64,000 nt of DNA, taken from Verrucomicrobiia bacterium (GTDB lineage Bacteria; Verrucomicrobiota; Verrucomicrobiia; Limisphaerales; DASXHY01). Shown one piece after another: positions 11,364 through 35,148 of the stretch. The notes under the pieces were generated by a model. That model searched no databases. It saw only the letters and a list, made by a program, of their open reading frames with translations, and was not told where the DNA came from. The stretch is taken from assembly GCA_035629175.1 (NCBI GenBank), contig DASPIL010000037.1, positions 1 through 64,000 on the forward strand, in the 5' to 3' direction. How positions within the stretch are numbered: the stretch's first letter is position 1; each line of letters begins with the position of its first letter. The position numbers and the translations under genes were made by a program.

Positions 11364-11674
11364 AAACAGCGGCTTTGCAGGCGCGGAATCAGCGTGGCAA
11401 GTTCGGTTCGGAGGCGCGAGGAAAACCTGAGGCGACCAGGCAGCGAATGCATTCGCCTTCGCTTGCTTCGCAAACCGCAGTGCCCGCGCGCTTTACGATT
11501 GTTAGCGCTCGGCGTTCCCGCCCTTCGGTTGTCAAGGCGCGGTAAGCATCCGCCAATTTCGGGAAAGAGTGTGCATCAGAGCGCGAATAGTCTCGTGCTC
11601 ACCCTATGGGCAATTGGCATCCAATCATAGCACCAGCGGCCCCTGACGAGCGCCGGTCCAACCCACGAGATTTC
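11364..11674. other. Divergent intergenic region before cytochrome cluster
   Basis: About 310 bp separate the GldG-like gene (minus) from the 9-heme cytochrome gene (plus). Promoters for both must lie here, but I found no convincing -35/-10 pair, operator or structured RNA. Confidence 0.5.
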
Positions 11675-13264
11675 ATGATCTTCCTGCGAACCGCTTTTCA
11701 CATACCGCTCATTTGCTGTCTCGCCCTCATCATTGCCACCCGGGCGGCTGATGCATCGGCCGCCGAGCCCGTGCCGCACCTTACAATGACGCAGCCAGGT
11801 GGAATGCCGGGCTGGCCGGTGATCACGAGCGTCGATCGCGCAACGAACGGGATGACTGTTCATTGGGAAGGTCCGCCAGGTTATTATCGATTGTTCCAGA
11901 AGAAAGGGGTTCAAGACAAAAACTGGACGCAGGTCGGCACACCGATGCTCGGACGCCAGGCCACGATCACCACTCTCTCCAGCAATGCGTTCTTCCGGAT
12001 TTCCGGACCCTCTCCACGCTATGCCGGCTCACAGGTTTGCGGCCAATGCCATACAGACGTTCACAACAATGCAATGCACACCCGGCACGCTGAGGCGTTA
12101 CAAACCCTGAAGCAGATCGGGCAGGACAAGAACGCCTCCTGTTTGCCCTGTCACACGGTCGGACACGGACTGCCGACAGGCTTCACTTCGGAACTCGCGA
12201 CGCCGAACCTGGCTGGCGTGCAATGTGAAAACTGTCATGGCCCGTCAGCGAATCACGCCGCAAACGAGGAGGACATCACGCTGCGTCCGCGCAAGGACAT
12301 CGCTGCGCAGGTGTGCGGCGGCTGTCATACGGATTCCCATCACCCGACGTATGACGAGTTCAGCGGCACGGGTCACGCCAATGTCACGGAAGACATGAGC
12401 CTTGTGAGCCGCGTCGACAGTTGCGGGCGCTGCCATTCGGGTTCGGCCCGGCTGACGATGCTGAAAGGCAACAGTGCGCTGAGCGTTACGAACGACGCGA
12501 ACATGGGAATCACTTGCGTCGTGTGCCACGATCCTCACAGCAATACGGTGAACCCGTCGCAGTTGCGAAATCCTCTTGCTTCCACCAACGACTTCTTTCT
12601 TTCCACATCGGGAAGCTTTGCCTCTGCCTATCGAGAGGACGTCAACGTCTGCGCGCAATGCCACAATCATCGTGGCGCGTCGTTCACGAGCAGCGGCCGC
12701 CCGCCGCATCATTCTCCGCAATATAATATGCTCATCGGCACGGTCGGGGAGCTCTCGGGCGGCACCAAGCCAAACCAGGCGGGAGCACATGCGCGATTGA
12801 TTGAAAAGCAGTGCGTGGGATGTCACATGGCTACTGAGGAATACGTCAGCGAGGCACAACCGGCCATGACGGGCCACAGTTTTCGTGTGGAAACATTCAA
12901 CAGTTGCGCTGAATGCCATCCGTTCCCCGAGCTCCTCACGGTGTTCACGACGTTCTCCGTATCGAACCAGGTGCAGCAGCTCAAGCAGGCGCTGGATCTT
13001 TGGGCAACCACGAAGGCGTCCGCGGCGTTGCGTACAAAATACGGCGCGAGAGCCTGGGAATACACGACGCCTGGCAGCCTTTCGAGTGGCGGGCCGGGAC
13101 CGAGCGCGGCGGAGCAGGCTCAGATTCCAATCAACATCCAGAAGGCTCGATTCAATTTGTACATTGTCCAATATGACGGCAGCTTCGGTGTGCATAATGG
13201 TCCCTACGCGATCACGCTTCTGGATGCAGCGCGCGCCTGGATCCAGGCGGAACTGAACAACTGA
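11675..13264 (+). CDS. Secreted nine-heme c-type cytochrome with N-terminal beta domain
   Basis: A 529-residue exported protein with nine CXXCH heme sites (CGQCH, CLPCH, CENCH, CGGCH, CGRCH, CVVCH, CAQCH, CVGCH, CAECH), so probably nine covalent hemes. A signal peptide (to about residue 28, ADASA) is followed by a roughly 90-residue beta-sandwich-like domain (TVHWEGPPGYYRL to FFRISGP) that matches the C-terminal domain of other large secreted proteins in this window; the heme region follows. The start at 11675 places the signal peptide at the N-terminus. It is followed 14 bp later by an 8-heme lipoprotein and then an MtrB/PioB-like barrel. Inferred role: electron carrier in a trans-outer-membrane conduit, perhaps the external terminal partner. 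It could also be periplasmic. Confidence 0.88.
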   Translation: MIFLRTAFHIPLICCLALIIATRAADASAAEPVPHLTMTQPGGMPGWPVITSVDRATNGMTVHWEGPPGYYRLFQKKGVQDKNWTQVGTPMLGRQATITTLSSNAFFRISGPSPRYAGSQVCGQCHTDVHNNAMHTRHAEALQTLKQIGQDKNASCLPCHTVGHGLPTGFTSELATPNLAGVQCENCHGPSANHAANEEDITLRPRKDIAAQVCGGCHTDSHHPTYDEFSGTGHANVTEDMSLVSRVDSCGRCHSGSARLTMLKGNSALSVTNDANMGITCVVCHDPHSNTVNPSQLRNPLASTNDFFLSTSGSFASAYREDVNVCAQCHNHRGASFTSSGRPPHHSPQYNMLIGTVGELSGGTKPNQAGAHARLIEKQCVGCHMATEEYVSEAQPAMTGHSFRVETFNSCAECHPFPELLTVFTTFSVSNQVQQLKQALDLWATTKASAALRTKYGARAWEYTTPGSLSSGGPGPSAAEQAQIPINIQKARFNLYIVQYDGSFGVHNGPYAITLLDAARAWIQAELNN

Positions 13265-13278
13265 GGGGCGCAATTACC

Positions 13279-14133
13279 ATGAGACTTCCAAACAGGATCA
13301 AGAATATTCCAGCAGCCGCGGTTCGTTGGATTGCGCTCGCGGCGGTGGCTGCCGTCGTGGGCACAGTAATGCTTGCGTGCCGCACCACGAATCGGGCTGT
13401 CGTCGTGCTGCCCGATTACCCAGGCGCAAAATACATTGGCTCCAAGGAATGCGAGCAATGTCATGACACCATTTACAGAGATTTCCAAACGGCTGATCAT
13501 GCACGCCTGATCACTGGAGGCGCCAACGCCCTGAATGCCGGTTGCGAATCGTGCCATGGCCCGGGCAGTGTGCATTCCGATTCCGGCGGCGAGATCAAGC
13601 CGCCGTTCAGCTTCTCGTCAGGCCGGCCACAACCCACCAGTGCTCTCGGACGGCAGGGGGTCGACCCCGCCCGCGCCACGGAAGACGTTTGTTATCAGTG
13701 CCACCAAGATGTTCGCGGCGAGTTCAACCTGCCGCATCATCATCCCGTTCCCGAAGGCAAGATGAGTTGCACTCAATGCCATCCACCGCACAAGGGGATC
13801 GCGCATGTGGGCGGCAGCACGCGGCTCACATCGAAGGAAGAGAACTGCATCCAGTGCCACCCGTCGCAGCGCGGCCCGCATGTCTTCGAGCATGAGGCAA
13901 TGCGTGAAGGCTGCTCGGCATGTCACTCGGCCCACGGCAGTGTGAATCCGAAAATGCTGACGGAGCGCGATTCGAACCTGTGCCTCAAGTGCCACTTCCA
14001 GGAGGTGCGCGGCGACAGCCTGCTCATCGGCGGCATTGAACACCGCGACCGTGTTCAGCAGGGAACGTGCTGGACGGCGGGCTGTCACGAAGCCGTTCAC
14101 GGGTCACGCGTGAATTCCTCGCTGCGCTATTAA
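13279..14133 (+). CDS. Eight-heme c-type cytochrome, MtrA/DmsE-like, likely membrane-anchored
   Basis: A 284-residue exported cytochrome with seven CXXCH sites (CEQCH, CESCH, CYQCH, CTQCH, CIQCH, CSACH, CLKCH) and one CX4CH site (CWTAGCH), giving eight likely hemes. The dense, evenly spaced motifs and distal His residues (for example HHHPVPEG and CHSAHGSVNP) resemble the MtrA/PioA/DmsE family, whose members usually have ten hemes. The N-terminus has a hydrophobic segment ending in VMLAC, a weak lipobox, so it may be a lipoprotein. It lies 14 bp after the 9-heme gene and just ahead of the barrel gene. In MtrAB-type conduits the MtrA-like cytochrome sits inside the barrel; the same is inferred here. 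Confidence 0.88.
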   Translation: MRLPNRIKNIPAAAVRWIALAAVAAVVGTVMLACRTTNRAVVVLPDYPGAKYIGSKECEQCHDTIYRDFQTADHARLITGGANALNAGCESCHGPGSVHSDSGGEIKPPFSFSSGRPQPTSALGRQGVDPARATEDVCYQCHQDVRGEFNLPHHHPVPEGKMSCTQCHPPHKGIAHVGGSTRLTSKEENCIQCHPSQRGPHVFEHEAMREGCSACHSAHGSVNPKMLTERDSNLCLKCHFQEVRGDSLLIGGIEHRDRVQQGTCWTAGCHEAVHGSRVNSSLRY

Positions 14134-14191
14134 CCATCAACTCTGAACGCTGATGAAACACCAAGAAACGAATCGCAAAGCGGGAAGGGGA

Positions 14192-16339
14192 ATGGCCACA
14201 CGAAAGCTTCGCCTGTGGGCGCGGCTTTTTGTCGGGGCCTCCATTGCGGCTTGCGGCGCACACCTGCACGGCGCTGAATCAGAAGCTCCCGCTGCTGAAG
14301 CGGCCGATGACGCAAAAGAGGAGACGAAAGAAGAACTGACGCCCGAACAAATGTTCGAAGGCGGCGAGGAAATCCCAGGCAATTGGGTCGAGATCTCCTA
14401 CGGCGGCATGCTCACGTCGGGCAGCAAGGGTACTGCGCAGCAGCGAATGCATCTCGGAGAAGGCATGTTCGGCGGCATTGAAGATCTGCATTATCAAAAA
14501 CAGGTCAACAAGGAGACTGTGTTTTCAACGGATCTTCGGGCTCTGCCAGGCGAGGAAGATTACCGCCTTAGCCTGAGCCTCGTTCGTGAAAAGCTGGGAT
14601 TCGTCCGGTTTCATTTTGAACAGTTCAGAACGTGGTACAACAATCCGGCAGGACATTTCGAACCCTCGCCTTTCCGCCTTCCTGCCCATGACGAAAGCCT
14701 GTTCATTGACCGCGGCGAGATCGGATTTACGGCTGGACTGACCAGGGCGAAGCTGCCGCAGATCACATTCGAATACCTGCACCAGTTTCGGGACGGTGAA
14801 AAAGGGTCCACGGCGTGGGGACCCGTGAACCTCGGTTTTCATCCGCCAAACCTCAGCATTCAGCGAAACCTCGCGCCATCGTTCTGGGACATTGACGAAA
14901 CGCGCGACATCTTCGCGCTCGACCTGCGGCATCCAATCAAAAAAACCGAAGCCGGCGTGGGTGTTCGCTATGAAGTCGGGAACATCAATAACGCAAGGAA
15001 GATGAATTTTCGCCCGAGCGAACCGAACGAACGAAAGGTGACGCATCGGGAAGGTTCGAGCCACGACCTCTTCAGCGCGCATGCATGGACCGAAACGTGG
15101 CTCAAGAACAACCTGATGTTCTCGTCAGGGTTCCTGTTTGCGAACTTGCACGACAGCCTTTCAGGGCGCCGTGTTTACGGCGATGACTTCGACGTTAACT
15201 ATTCTCCCGCCGCGGCGAATGGTGCGGGATTTGTGAATCTTGACGGCGTGATGAATCGCAAGGAGTACGTCATGAACCTGAATCTCATGACGATTCCCTT
15301 GCAAAACCTCACGATCATTCCATCGATGCGAGTGCAGAAGGAGGATTGGGATGCGGAGTCATTTGCAAATCCAACCACGGGGAATAATCCCCCTGCGCCG
15401 ATGTTGGCCCTGCGATCCAATGGCGATGCGCTCGACGTCCAGGAGCGGCTGGACGTGCGGTATACGGGCGTGACCAACTGGGTGCTCTACGCGCGAGGCG
15501 AATGGACGCAGGGTGAAGGACAATTGGATGAACGCGGCGGCATTCCTGCAAACGCCCGCATTCGTCGCGATACAGAAACGGAACGCCTGTTCCAGAAATA
15601 CACCATCGGGGCGCGTTGGTATCCAATGCGCGCATTGACCTTCGACGCGGGCGCTTACTACAAGCGGAACAGTTACGACTACGATCACGAGTTAGACACC
15701 ACCGTGAATGATTCGGCGAATCGCTATCCCGCTTACCTGGTGATGCAGGCGTTCGAAACGTTTGATGGCAATTTACGCGCGACCTGGCGTCCGCTGACAA
15801 AGCTCACTGTGTCCGGGCGATACGAATATCAGTTATCCACGATCAACACGCGGCCCGCGAGTGCCTCGGGACTCGCGGAACGGCAAAGCTCGGAAATGAC
15901 CAGCCAAATCGTTGGAGGCAATGCGAGCTGGGTGCCATGGTCAAGAATGTCGCTGCAGCTCGGTGCAAACTACGTTCAAAGCCAGACGGAAACACCCGTC
16001 GCGGACCTCGATTTCACGCGGGCCGCCCTGGCGTCGCAGAACAATTACTGGACCTTCAACATGAACACGACGTTCGTCGTTGATAACAAGACCGATCTGA
16101 GCCTTGGCTATTTCCGCTACGAAGCGGACAACTTCAGGACGGGGCTCGGTACGGAGGGTTTCTCATTGGGGGCCGAGACCGCCGAACACGGCGTGAGCGC
16201 GATGCTGACCCGCCGCTTGACACCCAATTTGCGGTGGAAGATGCGTTACAGCTGGTACACGTCGGAAGATGACACTTACGGCGCGCAAAACGACTTCGAC
16301 GCCCACATGCTCTTCACGAGCATGCAGTATCGCTTCTGA
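14192..16339 (+). CDS. MtrB/PioB-like outer-membrane beta-barrel protein
   Basis: A 715-residue exported protein predicted to form a large outer-membrane barrel: alternating hydrophobic/polar strands rich in aromatic residues run from about residue 75 to the end, and the last residue is Phe (MQYRF), the classical barrel C-terminal signal. The start at 14192 has a strong GGAAGGGGA ribosome binding site and is followed by a signal peptide; the ATG at 14153 lacks one. An acidic linker of about 35 residues follows the signal peptide. Directly after two multiheme cytochrome genes, the best reading is the porin sheath of a porin-cytochrome conduit. No N-terminal CXXC motif, found in some MtrB proteins, is seen. 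Family assignment rests on size, strand pattern and context. Confidence 0.75.
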   Translation: MATRKLRLWARLFVGASIAACGAHLHGAESEAPAAEAADDAKEETKEELTPEQMFEGGEEIPGNWVEISYGGMLTSGSKGTAQQRMHLGEGMFGGIEDLHYQKQVNKETVFSTDLRALPGEEDYRLSLSLVREKLGFVRFHFEQFRTWYNNPAGHFEPSPFRLPAHDESLFIDRGEIGFTAGLTRAKLPQITFEYLHQFRDGEKGSTAWGPVNLGFHPPNLSIQRNLAPSFWDIDETRDIFALDLRHPIKKTEAGVGVRYEVGNINNARKMNFRPSEPNERKVTHREGSSHDLFSAHAWTETWLKNNLMFSSGFLFANLHDSLSGRRVYGDDFDVNYSPAAANGAGFVNLDGVMNRKEYVMNLNLMTIPLQNLTIIPSMRVQKEDWDAESFANPTTGNNPPAPMLALRSNGDALDVQERLDVRYTGVTNWVLYARGEWTQGEGQLDERGGIPANARIRRDTETERLFQKYTIGARWYPMRALTFDAGAYYKRNSYDYDHELDTTVNDSANRYPAYLVMQAFETFDGNLRATWRPLTKLTVSGRYEYQLSTINTRPASASGLAERQSSEMTSQIVGGNASWVPWSRMSLQLGANYVQSQTETPVADLDFTRAALASQNNYWTFNMNTTFVVDNKTDLSLGYFRYEADNFRTGLGTEGFSLGAETAEHGVSAMLTRRLTPNLRWKMRYSWYTSEDDTYGAQNDFDAHMLFTSMQYRF

Positions 16340-21950: not shown

Positions 21951-24900
21951 ATGAATAGTTCCCGCACATTGCGGGTTAATTTTCCGCGGGCACACGGATT
22001 CCAGGCGGCGCTCATTGCGTGCCTGATCTTGCTGCCCATGCTCGCTTGCGCGCTCGATCCGGCGAAATCCATTCTTCAATTCAACTGCTTCAGCTGGACC
22101 CGCGCGAACGGCTTGCCCGCGGATAATATCACGGCGGTCGTGCAGGGTGATGACGGTTACGTCTGGCTGGGAACACGGAATGGCGTCCTTCGATTCGACG
22201 GATTGGGTTTCAAGCGAGTCGACTTCACCTTGCCCGCAGGAAGCGATTACGATATTCGCGCCATTTACCCTGCCGAGGCGGGCGGGCTGTGGCTTGCGAT
22301 CAATTCCGGCACTTGCATCCGCCTGCAAAACGGCCGGGTAGTGTCGGTTCTGCCGAATTCCCTCGGCGACGGCCTGGGTCTCGCCTGTTTTGAAACACGA
22401 AGCGGCGACTTGTGGACGAGCAGCGAAGTGGGAGTCCAGTGGACGGATCGAAGCGGAATGAGCCATGTCGCTGATGCAAAGATAATGAATGTGATGGCGT
22501 TCACCGAGGATCCGCGAGGAAACGTCTGGCTGGCGACTGCCGAGAACGGCCTCTGGCGGTGGAATGGGCGGGAATTTACGCAAATCAAAGATGACCGCCT
22601 GGCCGGCCGGGTTCTGCGCGTCATTACATCAGGGGCGGAGTGCCTTTGGCTGGGAACTGGAACGGGCCTCCTGTGTTATGACTTTGACGGCAACCCGTTG
22701 CCGGGCCCGAAGATCGACAACGAGATCAAAACCGTTCTAGTCGACAGGCATGGAACCTTGTGGCTCGGGACGGCCGGAGAGGGATTGCTGCGTTACCGGG
22801 GCGGCGATGTTACGTCTCTTCGACGCTCTGAAGGTCTTGCTGATGATCGCGTGACATCGCTGTGGGAGGATCAGGAAGGGAGCCTCTGGGTCGGCACACA
22901 CGCAGGGCTGAGCCAGCTTACCGACATTCGATTTCCCATTTTTTCTGTTGCGGGCGGAACGGCGCGCGCGGTGACGCCCACCGCTGATGGCGGTGTTTGG
23001 GTCGGCAGCTCATCTGGTCTCTCGTGGTTAAATGGAGAACGGATCCACAAGCCCGAAGACCTCCCGCAAATGCGGAACCGTTACGTGAAGCTTCTGATGC
23101 AAAGCCGGACTGGCCATCTCTATTTTGTCGACGGCGAAAAGAACCTTCATCTTCTCTCGTGGGACCGCGTGCTTCATTCCTATTCCAATAGAGACTGGCC
23201 AGGAGCCATTGGCGAAGACAGCGAGAGTGTGATTGTCGCGTACGGCGTGCCCCCGGCACTGGCGCGTGAGAAGAATGGCGTCCTCGAGCCCTTCGTTTTC
23301 AACGGCCCCGTCCCGGAATTCTACTGGCCGCACAACATGTGCACGGCCAAAGACGGCTCGCTGTGGGTGGCATCCAACAATGGATTGTTCCGCATCCAAA
23401 ACGGACAGTTTCAACAATGGACCACCCCGCGACTGCCCACGTCGCGCGTTTATTGGGTCTCAGAAGACACGCAGGGGGCCATTTGGGCCGGCATGGCAAA
23501 CGGCATCGCGCGCATCCGCAATGGCGAGGCAACCTTCGTCACTGCGCAACACGGACTTCCGGATGAAAGAGTGTATGCGATGATGGCTGACGACCTCGGT
23601 TCGTGGTGGGTGGCTACTGGATCGGGGATCGTGCGGATCGATGCCAAGAGCTTGAACGATTGCCTCGATGGCAAGCAAACACAGCTGCAAGCGGAGCTGT
23701 TCAACGACTTGGATTCGATCAAATCGAACGATCGCACAGACCAGGAACCATCGATTTGCAAAGATACGATGGGAAGGATATGGGTTCCCACGACGCAAGG
23801 GGTGGCGATGATCAACCCTGGAAATTTCTTCACGAATGCACTTCCGCCGCGCATTCGGATCGAAGACATCACTGTTGACGGCAAAGCCATCGACCGTGCG
23901 ATGTCGGCCGAAGTGTTCGGGTCGTCGCGGCTGGAGATCGCCTTTGCGGTGTTGAGCTTCATTTCTCCCGCGAAAATGCAAGTGCAGTATCAGCTCGTGG
24001 GGTTTGATACCGAATGGCAGGACGCCGGAACGCGCCGGTCGGCAAAATACAATCGTCTGCCGCCTGGCAATTACCGATTCCACCTCCGGGCAGCGAACGC
24101 GGACGGCATTTGGAATCGCGACGGAGCGACGTTTTCATTCCGCGTGCCGCCGCCATTCCACATGACATGGTGGTTCCGCACCTGTTGCGGACTGGGGATG
24201 GGATTGTTGCTGCTCGCCGCCTATCGATGGAAAGTGCACCAAATGGCCGTGCGGCAGCGGCGCTTGCAGAAAGCGAACGAGAGCCTGGAGAACCGGGTGC
24301 GGAGTCGCACGCAAGAACTCGCATACGAACGCGAACTGCTGCGGACGCTCCTCGATTTTTCGCCTGACTCAATATTCTTCAAGGATCTGGAAGGGCGGCT
24401 CGTCAGACTGAGCCGCTCAGAAGCCCAGAACCTGTTTGCCATTGCGATGAGCCGATACCGCCGTGAAAATCCGCAGGGGGAATTGCCGGAACATTTGAAG
24501 AGTATTGAAGCGTTCCACGAATACGCCATTGGGAAATCGGACGCTGACTTTTACGAACCAGAAATCGCGTTGCGCTTCCGGCAGGATGAGGAACAGGTTT
24601 TGCAGAGCGGCAAACCTCTCGTTGGCCGCGTCGATAAGACGATTCTACAGGACGGCCGAACTGTATGGCACATGACCACCAAGGTTCCCTGGCGGGATCC
24701 GGACGGCAGACTCGTGGGGTCGTTCGGAACTTCGCGGGACATTACAGATCTCAAGGAAGCGGAGGAACACGCTGCGGCAGCCAATCAACGGCTGGTGGAT
24801 TTGTCCCGGGAAGCGGGCATGGCAGAGGTTGCAACAGGCGTCCTGCACAACGTTGGGAACGTGCTGAACAGCATCAACGTTTCCACATCCATCCTGAGCG

Positions 24901-25643
24901 ATCGTGTGCGCCAGTCCAAGATATCCTCTGTGGCCCGCGTAGCCGAGCTTTGCGACGAACAGGGCGACCGGCTGGGTGAATTTGTGCAGAAGGATCCCCG
25001 CGGCCGCCATCTGCCAAAATTTCTGAACCAACTGGCGGGCCAGCTTGCTCGCGAACGTGATGAGGCGCTGGAGGAACTGGCGAACCTTCAGAAGAACGTG
25101 GAGCACGTGAAGGAAATCGTCAGCATGCAGCAGAGCTACGCCCGGGTGATGGGCGTCACGCAGCGCATCTCGATCGTCGAGCTGGTGGAGGATGCGCTGC
25201 ACCTGAATGAAGCGGGGCTCTCCCGCCGGCAAATCCAGGTGGTCAGGGATTATCGGGAACCGCTGCCGGAGATTGCCGTGGACAAGCACAAGCTGATGCA
25301 GATCGTCATCAACCTCATTCGAAACGCATTGCAGGCCTGTGAAGATACTGATCGCGCTGACAAAAAAATCGTGGTTGGCATTTTCTGCGAAGGTGCAGAG
25401 ATCCGGATTTCAGTCTCGGACAATGGCGTTGGCATCCCGCGGGAAAACCTGGTGCGAATCTTCAGCCACGGGTTTACAACGCGGAAGGATGGGCACGGCT
25501 TCGGCCTGCATAGCGGCTCTCTCGCCGCAAGGCAAATGGGCGGCAGCATCCTCGTCGAGAGCGACGGCCCGGGTTGCGGCGCTGTGTTTACGCTCGCGCT
25601 GCCCCTAATCGAGGAACTTCAGGAAACCGAACCGGTGTCATAA
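21951..25643 (+). CDS. Beta-propeller sensor histidine kinase with PAS domain
   Basis: A 1230-residue membrane sensor kinase. After a signal peptide (to about residue 33) come two-component-regulator propeller repeats (VWLGTRNGVLRFDG, LWLGTGTGLL, LWVGTHAGLSQL and others, to about residue 620), a Y_Y_Y domain (about 650-720), one membrane helix (CCGLGMGLLLLAAYRW), a coiled coil, a PAS domain (IFFKD, GKSDADFYEPE) and a kinase core. The phosphoacceptor His966 lies in VLHNVGNVLNSINV, and the ATPase has NLIRNALQA, DNGVGIP and GHGFGLH boxes. The periplasmic part resembles the sensors of Bacteroides hybrid systems that detect polysaccharide fragments, but there is no fused regulator and no response regulator gene nearby. 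Its last 25 bases overlap the convergent amidohydrolase gene. Confidence 0.92.
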   Translation: MNSSRTLRVNFPRAHGFQAALIACLILLPMLACALDPAKSILQFNCFSWTRANGLPADNITAVVQGDDGYVWLGTRNGVLRFDGLGFKRVDFTLPAGSDYDIRAIYPAEAGGLWLAINSGTCIRLQNGRVVSVLPNSLGDGLGLACFETRSGDLWTSSEVGVQWTDRSGMSHVADAKIMNVMAFTEDPRGNVWLATAENGLWRWNGREFTQIKDDRLAGRVLRVITSGAECLWLGTGTGLLCYDFDGNPLPGPKIDNEIKTVLVDRHGTLWLGTAGEGLLRYRGGDVTSLRRSEGLADDRVTSLWEDQEGSLWVGTHAGLSQLTDIRFPIFSVAGGTARAVTPTADGGVWVGSSSGLSWLNGERIHKPEDLPQMRNRYVKLLMQSRTGHLYFVDGEKNLHLLSWDRVLHSYSNRDWPGAIGEDSESVIVAYGVPPALAREKNGVLEPFVFNGPVPEFYWPHNMCTAKDGSLWVASNNGLFRIQNGQFQQWTTPRLPTSRVYWVSEDTQGAIWAGMANGIARIRNGEATFVTAQHGLPDERVYAMMADDLGSWWVATGSGIVRIDAKSLNDCLDGKQTQLQAELFNDLDSIKSNDRTDQEPSICKDTMGRIWVPTTQGVAMINPGNFFTNALPPRIRIEDITVDGKAIDRAMSAEVFGSSRLEIAFAVLSFISPAKMQVQYQLVGFDTEWQDAGTRRSAKYNRLPPGNYRFHLRAANADGIWNRDGATFSFRVPPPFHMTWWFRTCCGLGMGLLLLAAYRWKVHQMAVRQRRLQKANESLENRVRSRTQELAYERELLRTLLDFSPDSIFFKDLEGRLVRLSRSEAQNLFAIAMSRYRRENPQGELPEHLKSIEAFHEYAIGKSDADFYEPEIALRFRQDEEQVLQSGKPLVGRVDKTILQDGRTVWHMTTKVPWRDPDGRLVGSFGTSRDITDLKEAEEHAAAANQRLVDLSREAGMAEVATGVLHNVGNVLNSINVSTSILSDRVRQSKISSVARVAELCDEQGDRLGEFVQKDPRGRHLPKFLNQLAGQLARERDEALEELANLQKNVEHVKEIVSMQQSYARVMGVTQRISIVELVEDALHLNEAGLSRRQIQVVRDYREPLPEIAVDKHKLMQIVINLIRNALQACEDTDRADKKIVVGIFCEGAEIRISVSDNGVGIPRENLVRIFSHGFTTRKDGHGFGLHSGSLAARQMGGSILVESDGPGCGAVFTLALPLIEELQETEPVS

Positions 25644-32450: not shown

Positions 32451-32551
32451 GGTTGCTCCGTTCTGAGGAAAACATAGCGGTGTATTGCGACAGGGCAAGG
32501 TGCGTTTGAGCAATGAGCCGCGCGCGGGCGCAACTCGACCTATCTCGCCCG

Positions 32552-32582
32552 CCCGCTCCTCCACTCCAAGTGGAAGAGAGGG
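32552..32582. repeat. Dispersed hairpin repeat, copy B
   Basis: Bases 32552-32565 pair with 32569-32582 around a CCA loop. The layout is the same as copy A at 169-199, and the inner-stem G-C pair of copy A is an A-T pair here, a compensatory change. Two mismatches interrupt the stem. It lies between the DUF4404-like and GH115 genes. Confidence 0.65.
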
Positions 32583-32631
32583 AGACATTTCACGGGCTTG
32601 TCTTCGCAATGAGCTCCGCACAGGCTGGCTC

Positions 32632-35148
32632 ATGCAGAATAGCACTGGACCGTTTTCTCCTGCGTTGCGCCTGCTGACGCTTTTCAAAATCGCCGCTGCA
32701 GTTTCCTTCACCGCGCCCGCTGCCGATGCGCCGCGCGCGAGCAGCCAGCGAGTGCAACCGGCCGACTTTCCGCTGGTTGCGTCCAATCACGCCGCCGTGA
32801 TTGTGATCGACGAAGCCGACGCGAAGGTGGTGCGGATCGCTGCCGCGTTGCTGGCTGCGGACATTCAGAGCGTAACGGGTTTGCTGCCGCTCGTGACAAA
32901 TGACATCCCGGAATCAGCGAGCAGCCTGGTGGTCATTGGAACAATCGGGAGTTGCCGACACGTTGACGATTTGGTGAGTCGCCAGAAATTTGACATGGAG
33001 GGCATTCGCGGTGGCTGGGAAAGATTCAAGATCGGGACCGTCGAGCAGCCATTTCCTGGAGTTGCAAAAGCGTTGGTGATTGCCGGAAGCGATCGGCGTG
33101 GCGCTGCATACGGCGTCGTTTCGCTGTCGGAGTCCATGGGAGTTTCGCCCTGGCATTGGTGGTCAGATGTGACGCCTTCCCCCCGAACGAATGTGTTCGT
33201 CAGCGCAGATTCCTTCGTGTCCCGCGAACCCTCCGTCCGTTATCGCGGATTTTTCATCAACGACGAGGATTGGGGATTGCAACCATGGGCGGCGCGCACC
33301 TTTGAAGGCGGTTCCAATGAAGTGAAGGATATCGGCCCCAAAACGTATGCGAAGGTTTTTGAGCTCTTGCTGCGGCTCAAGGCCAACACACTGTGGCCTG
33401 CCATGCACGCCTGCACGAAACCGTTCAATTATTATCCCGCAAACCGGCAGCTCGCGGACGATTATGCAATCGTGATGGGTTCATCGCACGCCGAACCCAT
33501 GCTGCGAAACAATGTCGGCGAATGGACGGCCCCTCCTGCGGAGTACAATTACCAGACGCACAGCAACCAGGTGCGAGAATACTGGGAGACACGCGTCAGG
33601 GAAAATGGCAGGTTCGAGAACATCTACACGCTGGGCATGCGAGGCATCCACGATTCACGCATGCAGGGGCCGCGTGGCCGTGGTGAGCAGGTTCAGTTGC
33701 TGCAACAGATTTTCAGCGATCAGCGCGCGCTGCTTGCCAGACATGTGTCGTCCGACGTCGATTCCGTCCCCCAGGTGTTCTGCGCCTACAAGGAGGTGCT
33801 GGATGTGTATCGTGGCGGACTGAAGGTGCCCGATGACGTCACCATCATGTTTCCCGATGATAACTTCGGTTACATCAGGACCTTTGCGACCGCGCAGGAA
33901 CGGCAACGCCGCGGCGGCGCGGGCGTCTACTACCACATTTCCTACCTGGGCCGGCCATTGTCTTACCTCTGGCTGTGCACCACGCCACCGGCGTTGATCT
34001 GGGCCGAGATGACCAGGGCCTACGAACACGGTGCGCAACGCATGTGGATCGTAAACGTTGGCGATATCAAACCCGCGGAAATCGGAACGGAGTTTTTCCT
34101 GAAGCTGGCATGGGATGTACAGCAGTGGCGCGAAGACACTGTGAATCAATTCCTGGCGGGTTGGGCTGCGCGCGAATTCGGGCAGGATGCAGCGCCGGAA
34201 ACTGCCGCGATCATGGAGCAGTTCTATCGCTTGAATCACCAGCGCAAGCCAGAACACCTGCAATGGTGGCTGCCCAACGAGGAGCCGCGCCCGAGTCCCT
34301 GGAGCAATCGCGTCATCGCCGAGCGGCTTGCGGCATTCGACGATTTGGTTGAACGCGTCGAAGCGCTGGCGCGGCGTATTCCAAAGTCAAAGCACGACGC
34401 GTTCTTTCAACTGGTGCGTTACCCCGTCGCCGGTTCGGCCCTCGCCAATCGACGCTACTTTCTGGGTGAGCGCGGCCTGTCTGAAGCAGAGCGCGCGGAT
34501 GCCGAGTTGAGGGAGCTCACCCGCGTTTACAACGAGGAGATTGCGGGCGGCAAGTGGCACGGTTTCATGAGACTCGAACCCGCAGATAACGAATGGCGAG
34601 GGATGCGCATCAGCCGGTGGCAATCACGACAATGGCGCTCGCTGGATTTCACGAACGAACCAACTTCAGCCCCGATCGTCATTGAAGCCGAACAGTTTTC
34701 AACCCAGCGCAAAGGACCATCGGGTGAATGGAGAACGATCGGAGGTCTGGGCCCTTCAGGCGATTCGGTCAGCCTCTTCCCCGTGACGGCCCCGAGCGTC
34801 CCTTTGACAAATGTGTCCACGCACGCTCCGAGGCTGACATACGGCCTTGAGATGAAGTTCGCGGGCGAAGTCGACGTGACAGTCTGGTTGGTTCCAACCT
34901 TTCCCGTGAGCGGGAGCACGTTGCGAATCGCTATGGCTGCGGGAGATGAAACGCCACGCGTTCTGGAAGCGGCGCGGCGCGACGGAACAGCCGAATGGTC
35001 AGCAGGTGTCTTGAACGCAGCCGTACCCGTGAAGACCCGTCTGACGGTCCCGCAGCCAGGCCGAACCCCGCTGCACCTTTACGGAATCGATCCCGGCGTG
35101 GTCGTCGATCGCATCGAAGTTCAATTGCTTCAAGACAACCAGCCCTAA
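32632..35148 (+). CDS. Secreted GH115 alpha-glucuronidase
   Basis: Predicted to remove (4-O-methyl)-glucuronic acid side chains from xylan. The 838-residue protein has a signal peptide (to about residue 32) and the conserved GH115 blocks: YRGFFINDEDWGLQPWA, LLLRLKANTLWPAMHACTKP, GSSHAEPMLRNN, NIYTLGMRGIHDS, MFPDDNFGYIR and the YYHISYLGRP segment. A beta-rich C-terminal region (about 690-838) is the usual GH115 tail domain. The start at 32632 puts the signal peptide at the N-terminus; the frame is open further up but crosses a hairpin repeat. The gene is convergent with blaR1-like, leaving 13 bp between them. Confidence 0.92.
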   Translation: MQNSTGPFSPALRLLTLFKIAAAVSFTAPAADAPRASSQRVQPADFPLVASNHAAVIVIDEADAKVVRIAAALLAADIQSVTGLLPLVTNDIPESASSLVVIGTIGSCRHVDDLVSRQKFDMEGIRGGWERFKIGTVEQPFPGVAKALVIAGSDRRGAAYGVVSLSESMGVSPWHWWSDVTPSPRTNVFVSADSFVSREPSVRYRGFFINDEDWGLQPWAARTFEGGSNEVKDIGPKTYAKVFELLLRLKANTLWPAMHACTKPFNYYPANRQLADDYAIVMGSSHAEPMLRNNVGEWTAPPAEYNYQTHSNQVREYWETRVRENGRFENIYTLGMRGIHDSRMQGPRGRGEQVQLLQQIFSDQRALLARHVSSDVDSVPQVFCAYKEVLDVYRGGLKVPDDVTIMFPDDNFGYIRTFATAQERQRRGGAGVYYHISYLGRPLSYLWLCTTPPALIWAEMTRAYEHGAQRMWIVNVGDIKPAEIGTEFFLKLAWDVQQWREDTVNQFLAGWAAREFGQDAAPETAAIMEQFYRLNHQRKPEHLQWWLPNEEPRPSPWSNRVIAERLAAFDDLVERVEALARRIPKSKHDAFFQLVRYPVAGSALANRRYFLGERGLSEAERADAELRELTRVYNEEIAGGKWHGFMRLEPADNEWRGMRISRWQSRQWRSLDFTNEPTSAPIVIEAEQFSTQRKGPSGEWRTIGGLGPSGDSVSLFPVTAPSVPLTNVSTHAPRLTYGLEMKFAGEVDVTVWLVPTFPVSGSTLRIAMAAGDETPRVLEAARRDGTAEWSAGVLNAAVPVKTRLTVPQPGRTPLHLYGIDPGVVVDRIEVQLLQDNQP

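Follow-up and report, generated by a model that had tools for sequence, protein, structure and literature searches.

A candidate porin-cytochrome conduit in an uncultured Verrucomicrobium combines an octaheme MtrA relative, an MtrB-fold barrel and an OcwA-like cytochrome

We analysed a 64,000-nt stretch of DNA (hereafter the window) from a Verrucomicrobiia bacterium, corresponding to positions 1 to 64,000, forward strand, of contig DASPIL010000037.1 (assembly GCA_035629175.1). Three open reading frames (ORFs), all on the plus strand and here called g1, g2 and g3, span positions 11675-16339 and, in our reading, encode a porin-cytochrome conduit across the outer membrane of an uncultured Verrucomicrobium (probability about 0.87), with electrons probably flowing outward. 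The sequence and fold evidence all point to a conserved trans-outer-membrane conduit, known in kind, whose function is predicted. A first-pass annotation had described three adjacent same-strand genes encoding an exported 9-heme cytochrome, an 8-heme likely lipoprotein and a 715-residue barrel ending in Phe, and each of these descriptions held. The features of the locus are as follows.

11675..13264, plus strand: g1, exported nonaheme c-type cytochrome, OcwA-like; candidate outer or terminal subunit
11795..12016, plus strand: Fn3-like beta domain at the g1 N terminus, common to other large ORFs of the same genome
12926..13258, plus strand: C-terminal helical bundle of g1 (OcwA/NrfA-type), a confident part of the model, with the DGSxGVHN motif
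13279..14133, plus strand: g2, octaheme MtrA-like periplasmic cytochrome, probable lipoprotein; proposed wire inside the barrel
13378..13380, plus strand: C34 of g2, the lipobox cysteine (conserved in 97% of 37 homologues)
14068..14088, plus strand: eighth heme site of g2, CX4CH (CWTAGCH), with Cys and His invariant in 37/37 homologues
14153..16339 (start may be 14192), plus strand: g3, predicted 26-stranded outer-membrane barrel with a modelled MtrB fold

The genes are separated by 14 bases (g1-g2) and 19 bases (g2-g3). Together, g1 and g2 contain 16 CXXCH motifs, while no other open frame of the window holds more than one; chance clustering of heme motifs in two adjacent ORFs was, therefore, rejected.

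The g2 protein carries seven CXXCH motifs and one CX4CH site (C264-WTAG-CH), and its description as an 8-heme cytochrome holds only if the latter is counted. All eight motifs are invariant in the alignment of 37 homologues. Apart from the eight proximal histidines, eight and only eight more are invariant (H74, H99, H155, H171, H205, H219, H255 and H274), a pattern as expected for eight bis-histidine hemes, which argues for a wire without an open catalytic site. Given the conservation of its lipobox cysteine, g2 is probably a lipoprotein.

The best PDB match of g2 was 6r2q_A (E=4e-25), the MtrA chain of an entry titled 'Structure of the Mtr complex'; the odd molecule name of this chain in the match table is an oddity of the deposition. 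Among NCBIfam profiles, g2 matched the GSU2203 family (E=1e-47) and the DmsE family (E=1e-45), both below their cut-offs. Its score against the decaheme MtrA/DmsE family was 156 bits, short of the curated cut-off of 192, for a protein with eight hemes. When g2 was aligned to the decaheme MtrA of a verrucomicrobial genome, a single stretch containing hemes 3 and 4 was missing. Its sequence identifies g2 as a homologue of MtrA without hemes 3-4 of the latter. Within its barrel, MtrA points its C terminus outward, and it leaves its N terminus in the periplasm (PMC7198977); because of this arrangement, loss of the heme pair would shorten the periplasmic half of g2 and spare the six hemes of the barrel-embedded half.

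The third gene, g3, encodes 728 amino acids from the ATG at 14153 or 715 from that at 14192. The protein has one cysteine, no CXXCH, no CXXC and a C-terminal Phe. An AlphaFold2 model based on 44 homologues (predicted local distance difference test score, pLDDT, 83.7; predicted template modelling score, pTM, 0.80) contains 26 strands within residues 78 to 727. Foldseek retrieved MtrB (6r2q_B) as the top match (E=7e-18), followed by a match with E=6.5e-11. In VIA-align comparisons, the model aligned with 6r2q_B over 552 residues (Z 22.2, root mean square deviation 3.6), and TonB receptors came next, with Z values of about 15, larger deviations and fewer residues. Two further traits reported for MtrB (PMC7198977) occur in the model: short early strands and, between strands 1 and 2, a helix (92-99). 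The modelled fold of g3 is MtrB-like, and it is from the fold alone that the kinship of the barrel is read. At the sequence level, g3 goes unrecognised: searches of the PDB gave chance matches only, with the single sequence and with profile A1 alike, and a contig scan with a single-protein query gave no matches.

Barrel homologues were found in 41 out of 58 genomes of the same order. They split into two groups, clade A (the type found in the window) and clade B (18-28% identity). A search for CXXC in clade A barrels found none in g3 or its relatives, except for one match in an N-terminal leader. An N-terminal CXXC is a feature of the gammaproteobacterial MtrB. The pairing of barrel and cytochrome is highly conserved: a 7+1-heme gene adjoins the barrel in 48 of the 50 loci from the same order, the other two lying at a contig edge. 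A separate scan yielded 80 named loci; their titles are nearly all those of Verrucomicrobia-type MAGs (Verrucomicrobia, Limisphaerales, Pedosphaera or Spartobacteria), and many come from bogs, palsa, lakes and groundwater. A g2 homologue lies directly upstream of the barrel, on the same strand, in 77 of these, and the other three end at contig ends (77/77 untruncated). Thus, every homologue with an intact upstream flank adjoins an 8-heme gene. The nonaheme gene was found only with clade A barrels (14 out of 21 loci in the 50-locus set). Gene counts in the 80 named loci were 34 for the nonaheme gene, 25 for the NrfH/NapC-like n6, 16 for a second nonaheme gene (p9) and 11 for an 11-heme b-type gene.

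Across the phylum, the barrel family is patchy (17 out of 289 genomes), and the canonical MtrB is rarer still, with one clear case in 195 genomes. That genome, G218 (L083, L109), carries the verrucomicrobial octaheme type alongside a canonical decaheme MtrAB pair. Other arrangements include three 8-heme/barrel pairs in tandem on a single contig (L205:1341-10899) and, just after the barrel, a 995-aa protein with 19 hemes that is related to the 11-heme b-type protein (L180:4257 onward).

The g1 protein has nine CXXCH motifs. Translation from 11675 gives it a normal signal peptide; an alternative opening of the ORF lies at 11606. Its best PDB sequence match was OcwA (6i5b, E=4e-18, phmmer), with all nine hemes in order. 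The phmmer alignment also showed a common DGSxGVHN motif, and the C-terminal helical bundle of OcwA is common to g1, with helices in the model (pLDDT mostly 75-94 in this part). OcwA was again the top Foldseek match, from a model whose overall quality is poor, and we quote it only beside the sequence match. Two HH pairs of g1, H222/H223 and H345/H346, are the counterparts of those covering the open hemes 2 and 5 of OcwA, the second His of each pair being conserved at 0.53 and 0.73 in the family; the model is too poor to judge heme ligand geometry. Three consecutive hemes of g1 fall within a match to a Pfam MtrC/MtrF II-IV domain; over the full length OcwA is the best match, and OmcA/MtrC was not listed among the NCBIfam matches of g1. 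On these grounds, g1 seems to be of the OcwA type rather than MtrC-like. The N-terminal beta domain, which the annotation had recognised in other proteins of the organism, is Fn3-like in the model and also occurs in four further large ORFs of the genome. The differences from MtrCAB that it listed (9 and 8 hemes, no CXXC and this beta domain) are all real.

In a quick tree, a fully supported branch sets the clade B barrels apart; they carry a PSCyt1 domain at their N terminus (23/23 rows, Pfam). CXXCH is present in 28 out of 29 clade B loci, the remaining one being truncated. These PSCyt1-MtrB-like barrel fusions (L052-L080, e.g. L056:4989-7379 and L054:4491-7013) lie beside a 7+1-heme MtrA-like gene, and no nonaheme gene was found within 5 kb of them. 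A PDB search with profile A2 retrieved mainly small cytochromes, matched through the PSCyt1 part. The layout of this heme-bearing porin parallels that of Cyc2.

Heme proteins elsewhere in the genome of the window were identified through a two-motif pattern, which gives at least the following set. Cluster C84 (15.7-21.4 kb; L124:6733-12426) encodes a 9-heme and an 11-heme protein, each with a b-type part, and n6, an NrfH/NapC-like 6+1-heme protein. Outside this cluster, the set includes a g1 paralogue with a C-terminal beta domain (C23), NrfHA and an ACIII-type pentaheme protein. An 8-heme cytochrome fused to TPR repeats is also encoded (L127:4885-7356). Homologues of the C84 set adjoin the conduit in relatives (L040, L129, L162, L170, L189 and others). 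One such locus, L129:1-15370, contains in a row a second nonaheme gene, a 13-heme gene, g1, g2, g3, and NrfH/NapC-like and 11-heme b-type genes. Among 39 genomes, the presence of n6 tracks clade A barrels (12/14 versus 5/25, Fisher p=1e-4), a p value that is only a guide, as the genomes are related to each other. The inner-membrane-type cluster C84 is likely to be the electron entry to the conduit. The linked modules in relatives, together with the tracking of n6 and clade A, support a circuit from the quinol pool through the n6/b-type module and g2-g3 to g1, in which the direction of electron flow would be outward.

Direct support covers the genes, their homologies, the barrel fold (as a model), the heme ligand pattern, the conserved pairing and the neighbourhoods. 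From these, we infer the assembly of the conduit, the surface location of g1, the outward direction and the acceptor. The conduit probably exports electrons from the quinone pool. Most likely, these would leave through the NrfH/NapC-like and multiheme/b-type membrane complexes encoded elsewhere in the genome. Tethered to lipid at its N terminus, g2 would thread from the periplasm into the MtrB-fold barrel of g3 and move electrons over its eight bis-histidine hemes, the conserved C-terminal six lying inside the barrel. On the outer side, the OcwA-like g1 would take or give electrons, passing them to a final partner such as humic quinones, Fe(III) or another acceptor of this sort outside the cell. 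The organism could in this way trade electrons with external solids or humic material.

Alternatively, the conduit could work inward, with g1 or g2 taking electrons from an outside donor, e.g. Fe(II), and feeding oxidases or quinone, as PioAB and MtoAB do. We consider this unlikely: in relatives, the conduit is linked to NrfH/NapC-like and multiheme b-type modules, proteins of types that as a rule oxidise quinol, and OcwA, the relative of g1, is a terminal reductase (PMC6703420). Nevertheless, conduits are in principle reversible, the genome has several heme-copper oxidases and the ACIII-type pentaheme protein, and the sister clade, with an 8-heme cytochrome and a barrel but no outer 9-heme gene nearby, is PioAB-like.

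It is also improbable, in our view, that g1 acts mainly as an enzyme on the surface, fed by g2-g3 as DmsAB is by DmsEF, and uses open hemes to reduce a small soluble compound such as nitrite or hydroxylamine. Nitrite and hydroxylamine are both reduced by OcwA, in which two hemes are penta-coordinate and lie under His-His pairs, but OcwA turnover with nitrite is very slow (PMC6703420). The corresponding HH pairs exist in g1, but the second His of each is not invariant, and NrfHA is already encoded in the genome.

That g3 is an ordinary transporter, e.g. of the TonB-dependent class, beside unrelated periplasmic cytochromes is very improbable: its strand architecture is common to large barrels and TonB receptors are its next-best structural matches, but MtrB, matched along almost all of the barrel, exceeds them by 7 Z units, the model has no plug domain, and the barrel is in fixed pairing with an MtrA-like gene. 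Ordinary porin and TonB receptor identities for g3 were both rejected; it models as MtrB.

Several observations weigh against an outward conduit of this composition. The Pfam family MtrB_PioB (PF11854) does not match g3; it matches 4 out of 44 g3 homologues (best E=0.0076) and nothing in the genome of the window. A profile comparison between the g3-type barrel (A1) and one canonical MtrB from the same phylum (L083) detected no similarity. The AlphaFold model of g1 is poor (pLDDT 57.5). This protein has a plain signal peptide without a lipobox and shows no sign of crossing the outer membrane, and the only secretins found were GspD-like matches below the family cut-off. Moreover, the g1 gene is missing near many homologous g2-barrel pairs. 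Finally, with several heme-copper oxidases in the genome, external acceptors may not be obligatory.

Upstream of the locus lies a minus-strand gene for a DUF7088 protein and downstream a convergent subtilase gene; the transcription unit is, therefore, probably just g1-g2-g3. Promoter and terminator scans gave chance-level results. Elsewhere in the window, a GH115 glycosidase (32485-35148) and a Reg_prop/Y_Y_Y histidine kinase (21951-25643) fit a degrader of plant polysaccharides.

This kind of cluster is already known, having been proposed for the phylum in 2017 as a putative conduit. In six Verrucomicrobia from Trout Bog, He et al. (2017) described clusters that join a porin gene to one for an 8-heme periplasmic cytochrome and, in some cases, to an extracellular multiheme gene, and they listed Opitutus terrae and Ca. 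Udaeobacter as having homologues (PMC5615132); the proposal was repeated by He et al. in 2019 (PMC6344600). The phylum is not named in the main text of a 2022 mtrCAB survey or a 2024 multiheme survey. Judged by the published descriptions, the window locus most likely belongs to that set. External electron transfer in a polysaccharide-degrading verrucomicrobium, as suggested in the first-pass annotation, is, thus, a supported interpretation that was already in print. He et al. treat PSCyt proteins, but no fusions of these with porins. In the papers searched, we found no mention for these clusters of an MtrB fold, a lost heme pair, an OcwA-type partner, linkage to n6/b11 or PSCyt1 barrels; we regard as new the fold, the lost heme pair, the partner, the inner-membrane linkage and the sister clade with its PSCyt1-heme barrel.

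These results lend fold-level support to the view that the proposed clusters encode genuine wires across the outer membrane, remotely related to MtrAB, and they name a concrete three-gene set with its inner-membrane partners. The hosts are abundant soil and lake bacteria for which external respiration is not known. The comparison also suggests that a heme pair of MtrA is dispensable and that different outer cytochromes may dock on the same core. A broader proposal, on which we are evenly divided, is that of a hybrid conduit class largely confined to Verrucomicrobiota. It would comprise a lipid-tethered MtrA minus one heme pair, an MtrB-fold barrel, an open-heme OcwA-type cap and a dedicated inner-membrane module, the sister-clade barrel having its own PSCyt1 heme, with the porin as part of the electron path.

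Among known systems, the clusters of He et al. are the closest in setting: the same phylum, a porin beside an 8-heme periplasmic cytochrome, sometimes an extracellular multiheme gene, and humic-water polysaccharide degraders as hosts. Taking a barrel of at least 20 strands beside an eight-heme cytochrome as the mark of these clusters, we found 26 strands and seven CXXCH plus CX4CH, with a 9-heme gene in 34 of the 80 named loci and A1-type barrels in Spartobacteria, a group that they named. However, those authors call the clusters not homologous to MtrCAB (PMC5615132, PMC6344600), whereas the g3 fold and the g2 sequence point to remote MtrAB relatives. The locus shares with Shewanella MtrCAB (6r2q) the 26-strand barrel fold, an MtrA homologue and the order outer cytochrome, inner cytochrome, barrel. 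It differs in that g2 has eight hemes instead of ten, the last being CX4CH, and is probably lipidated, in that the barrel lacks CXXC, and in that the outer subunit seems to be OcwA-like rather than MtrC. PioAB and MtoAB are likewise MtrAB-type pairs of a barrel and a multiheme cytochrome, but theirs is decaheme and they lack an outer cytochrome. Geobacter Pcc (OmbB-OmaB-OmcB) is alike in components (porin, 8-heme periplasmic and outer multiheme cytochromes), but its outer cytochrome has 12 hemes, and g2 matches MtrA/DmsE families. Lastly, OcwA of Thermincola potens (6i5b) shares with g1 nine hemes in the same order, the C-terminal helical bundle, DGSxGVHN and HH pairs at the open-heme sites; it is a surface protein of a Gram-positive bacterium, whereas g1 carries an Fn3-like domain at its N terminus and goes together with a predicted outer-membrane conduit.

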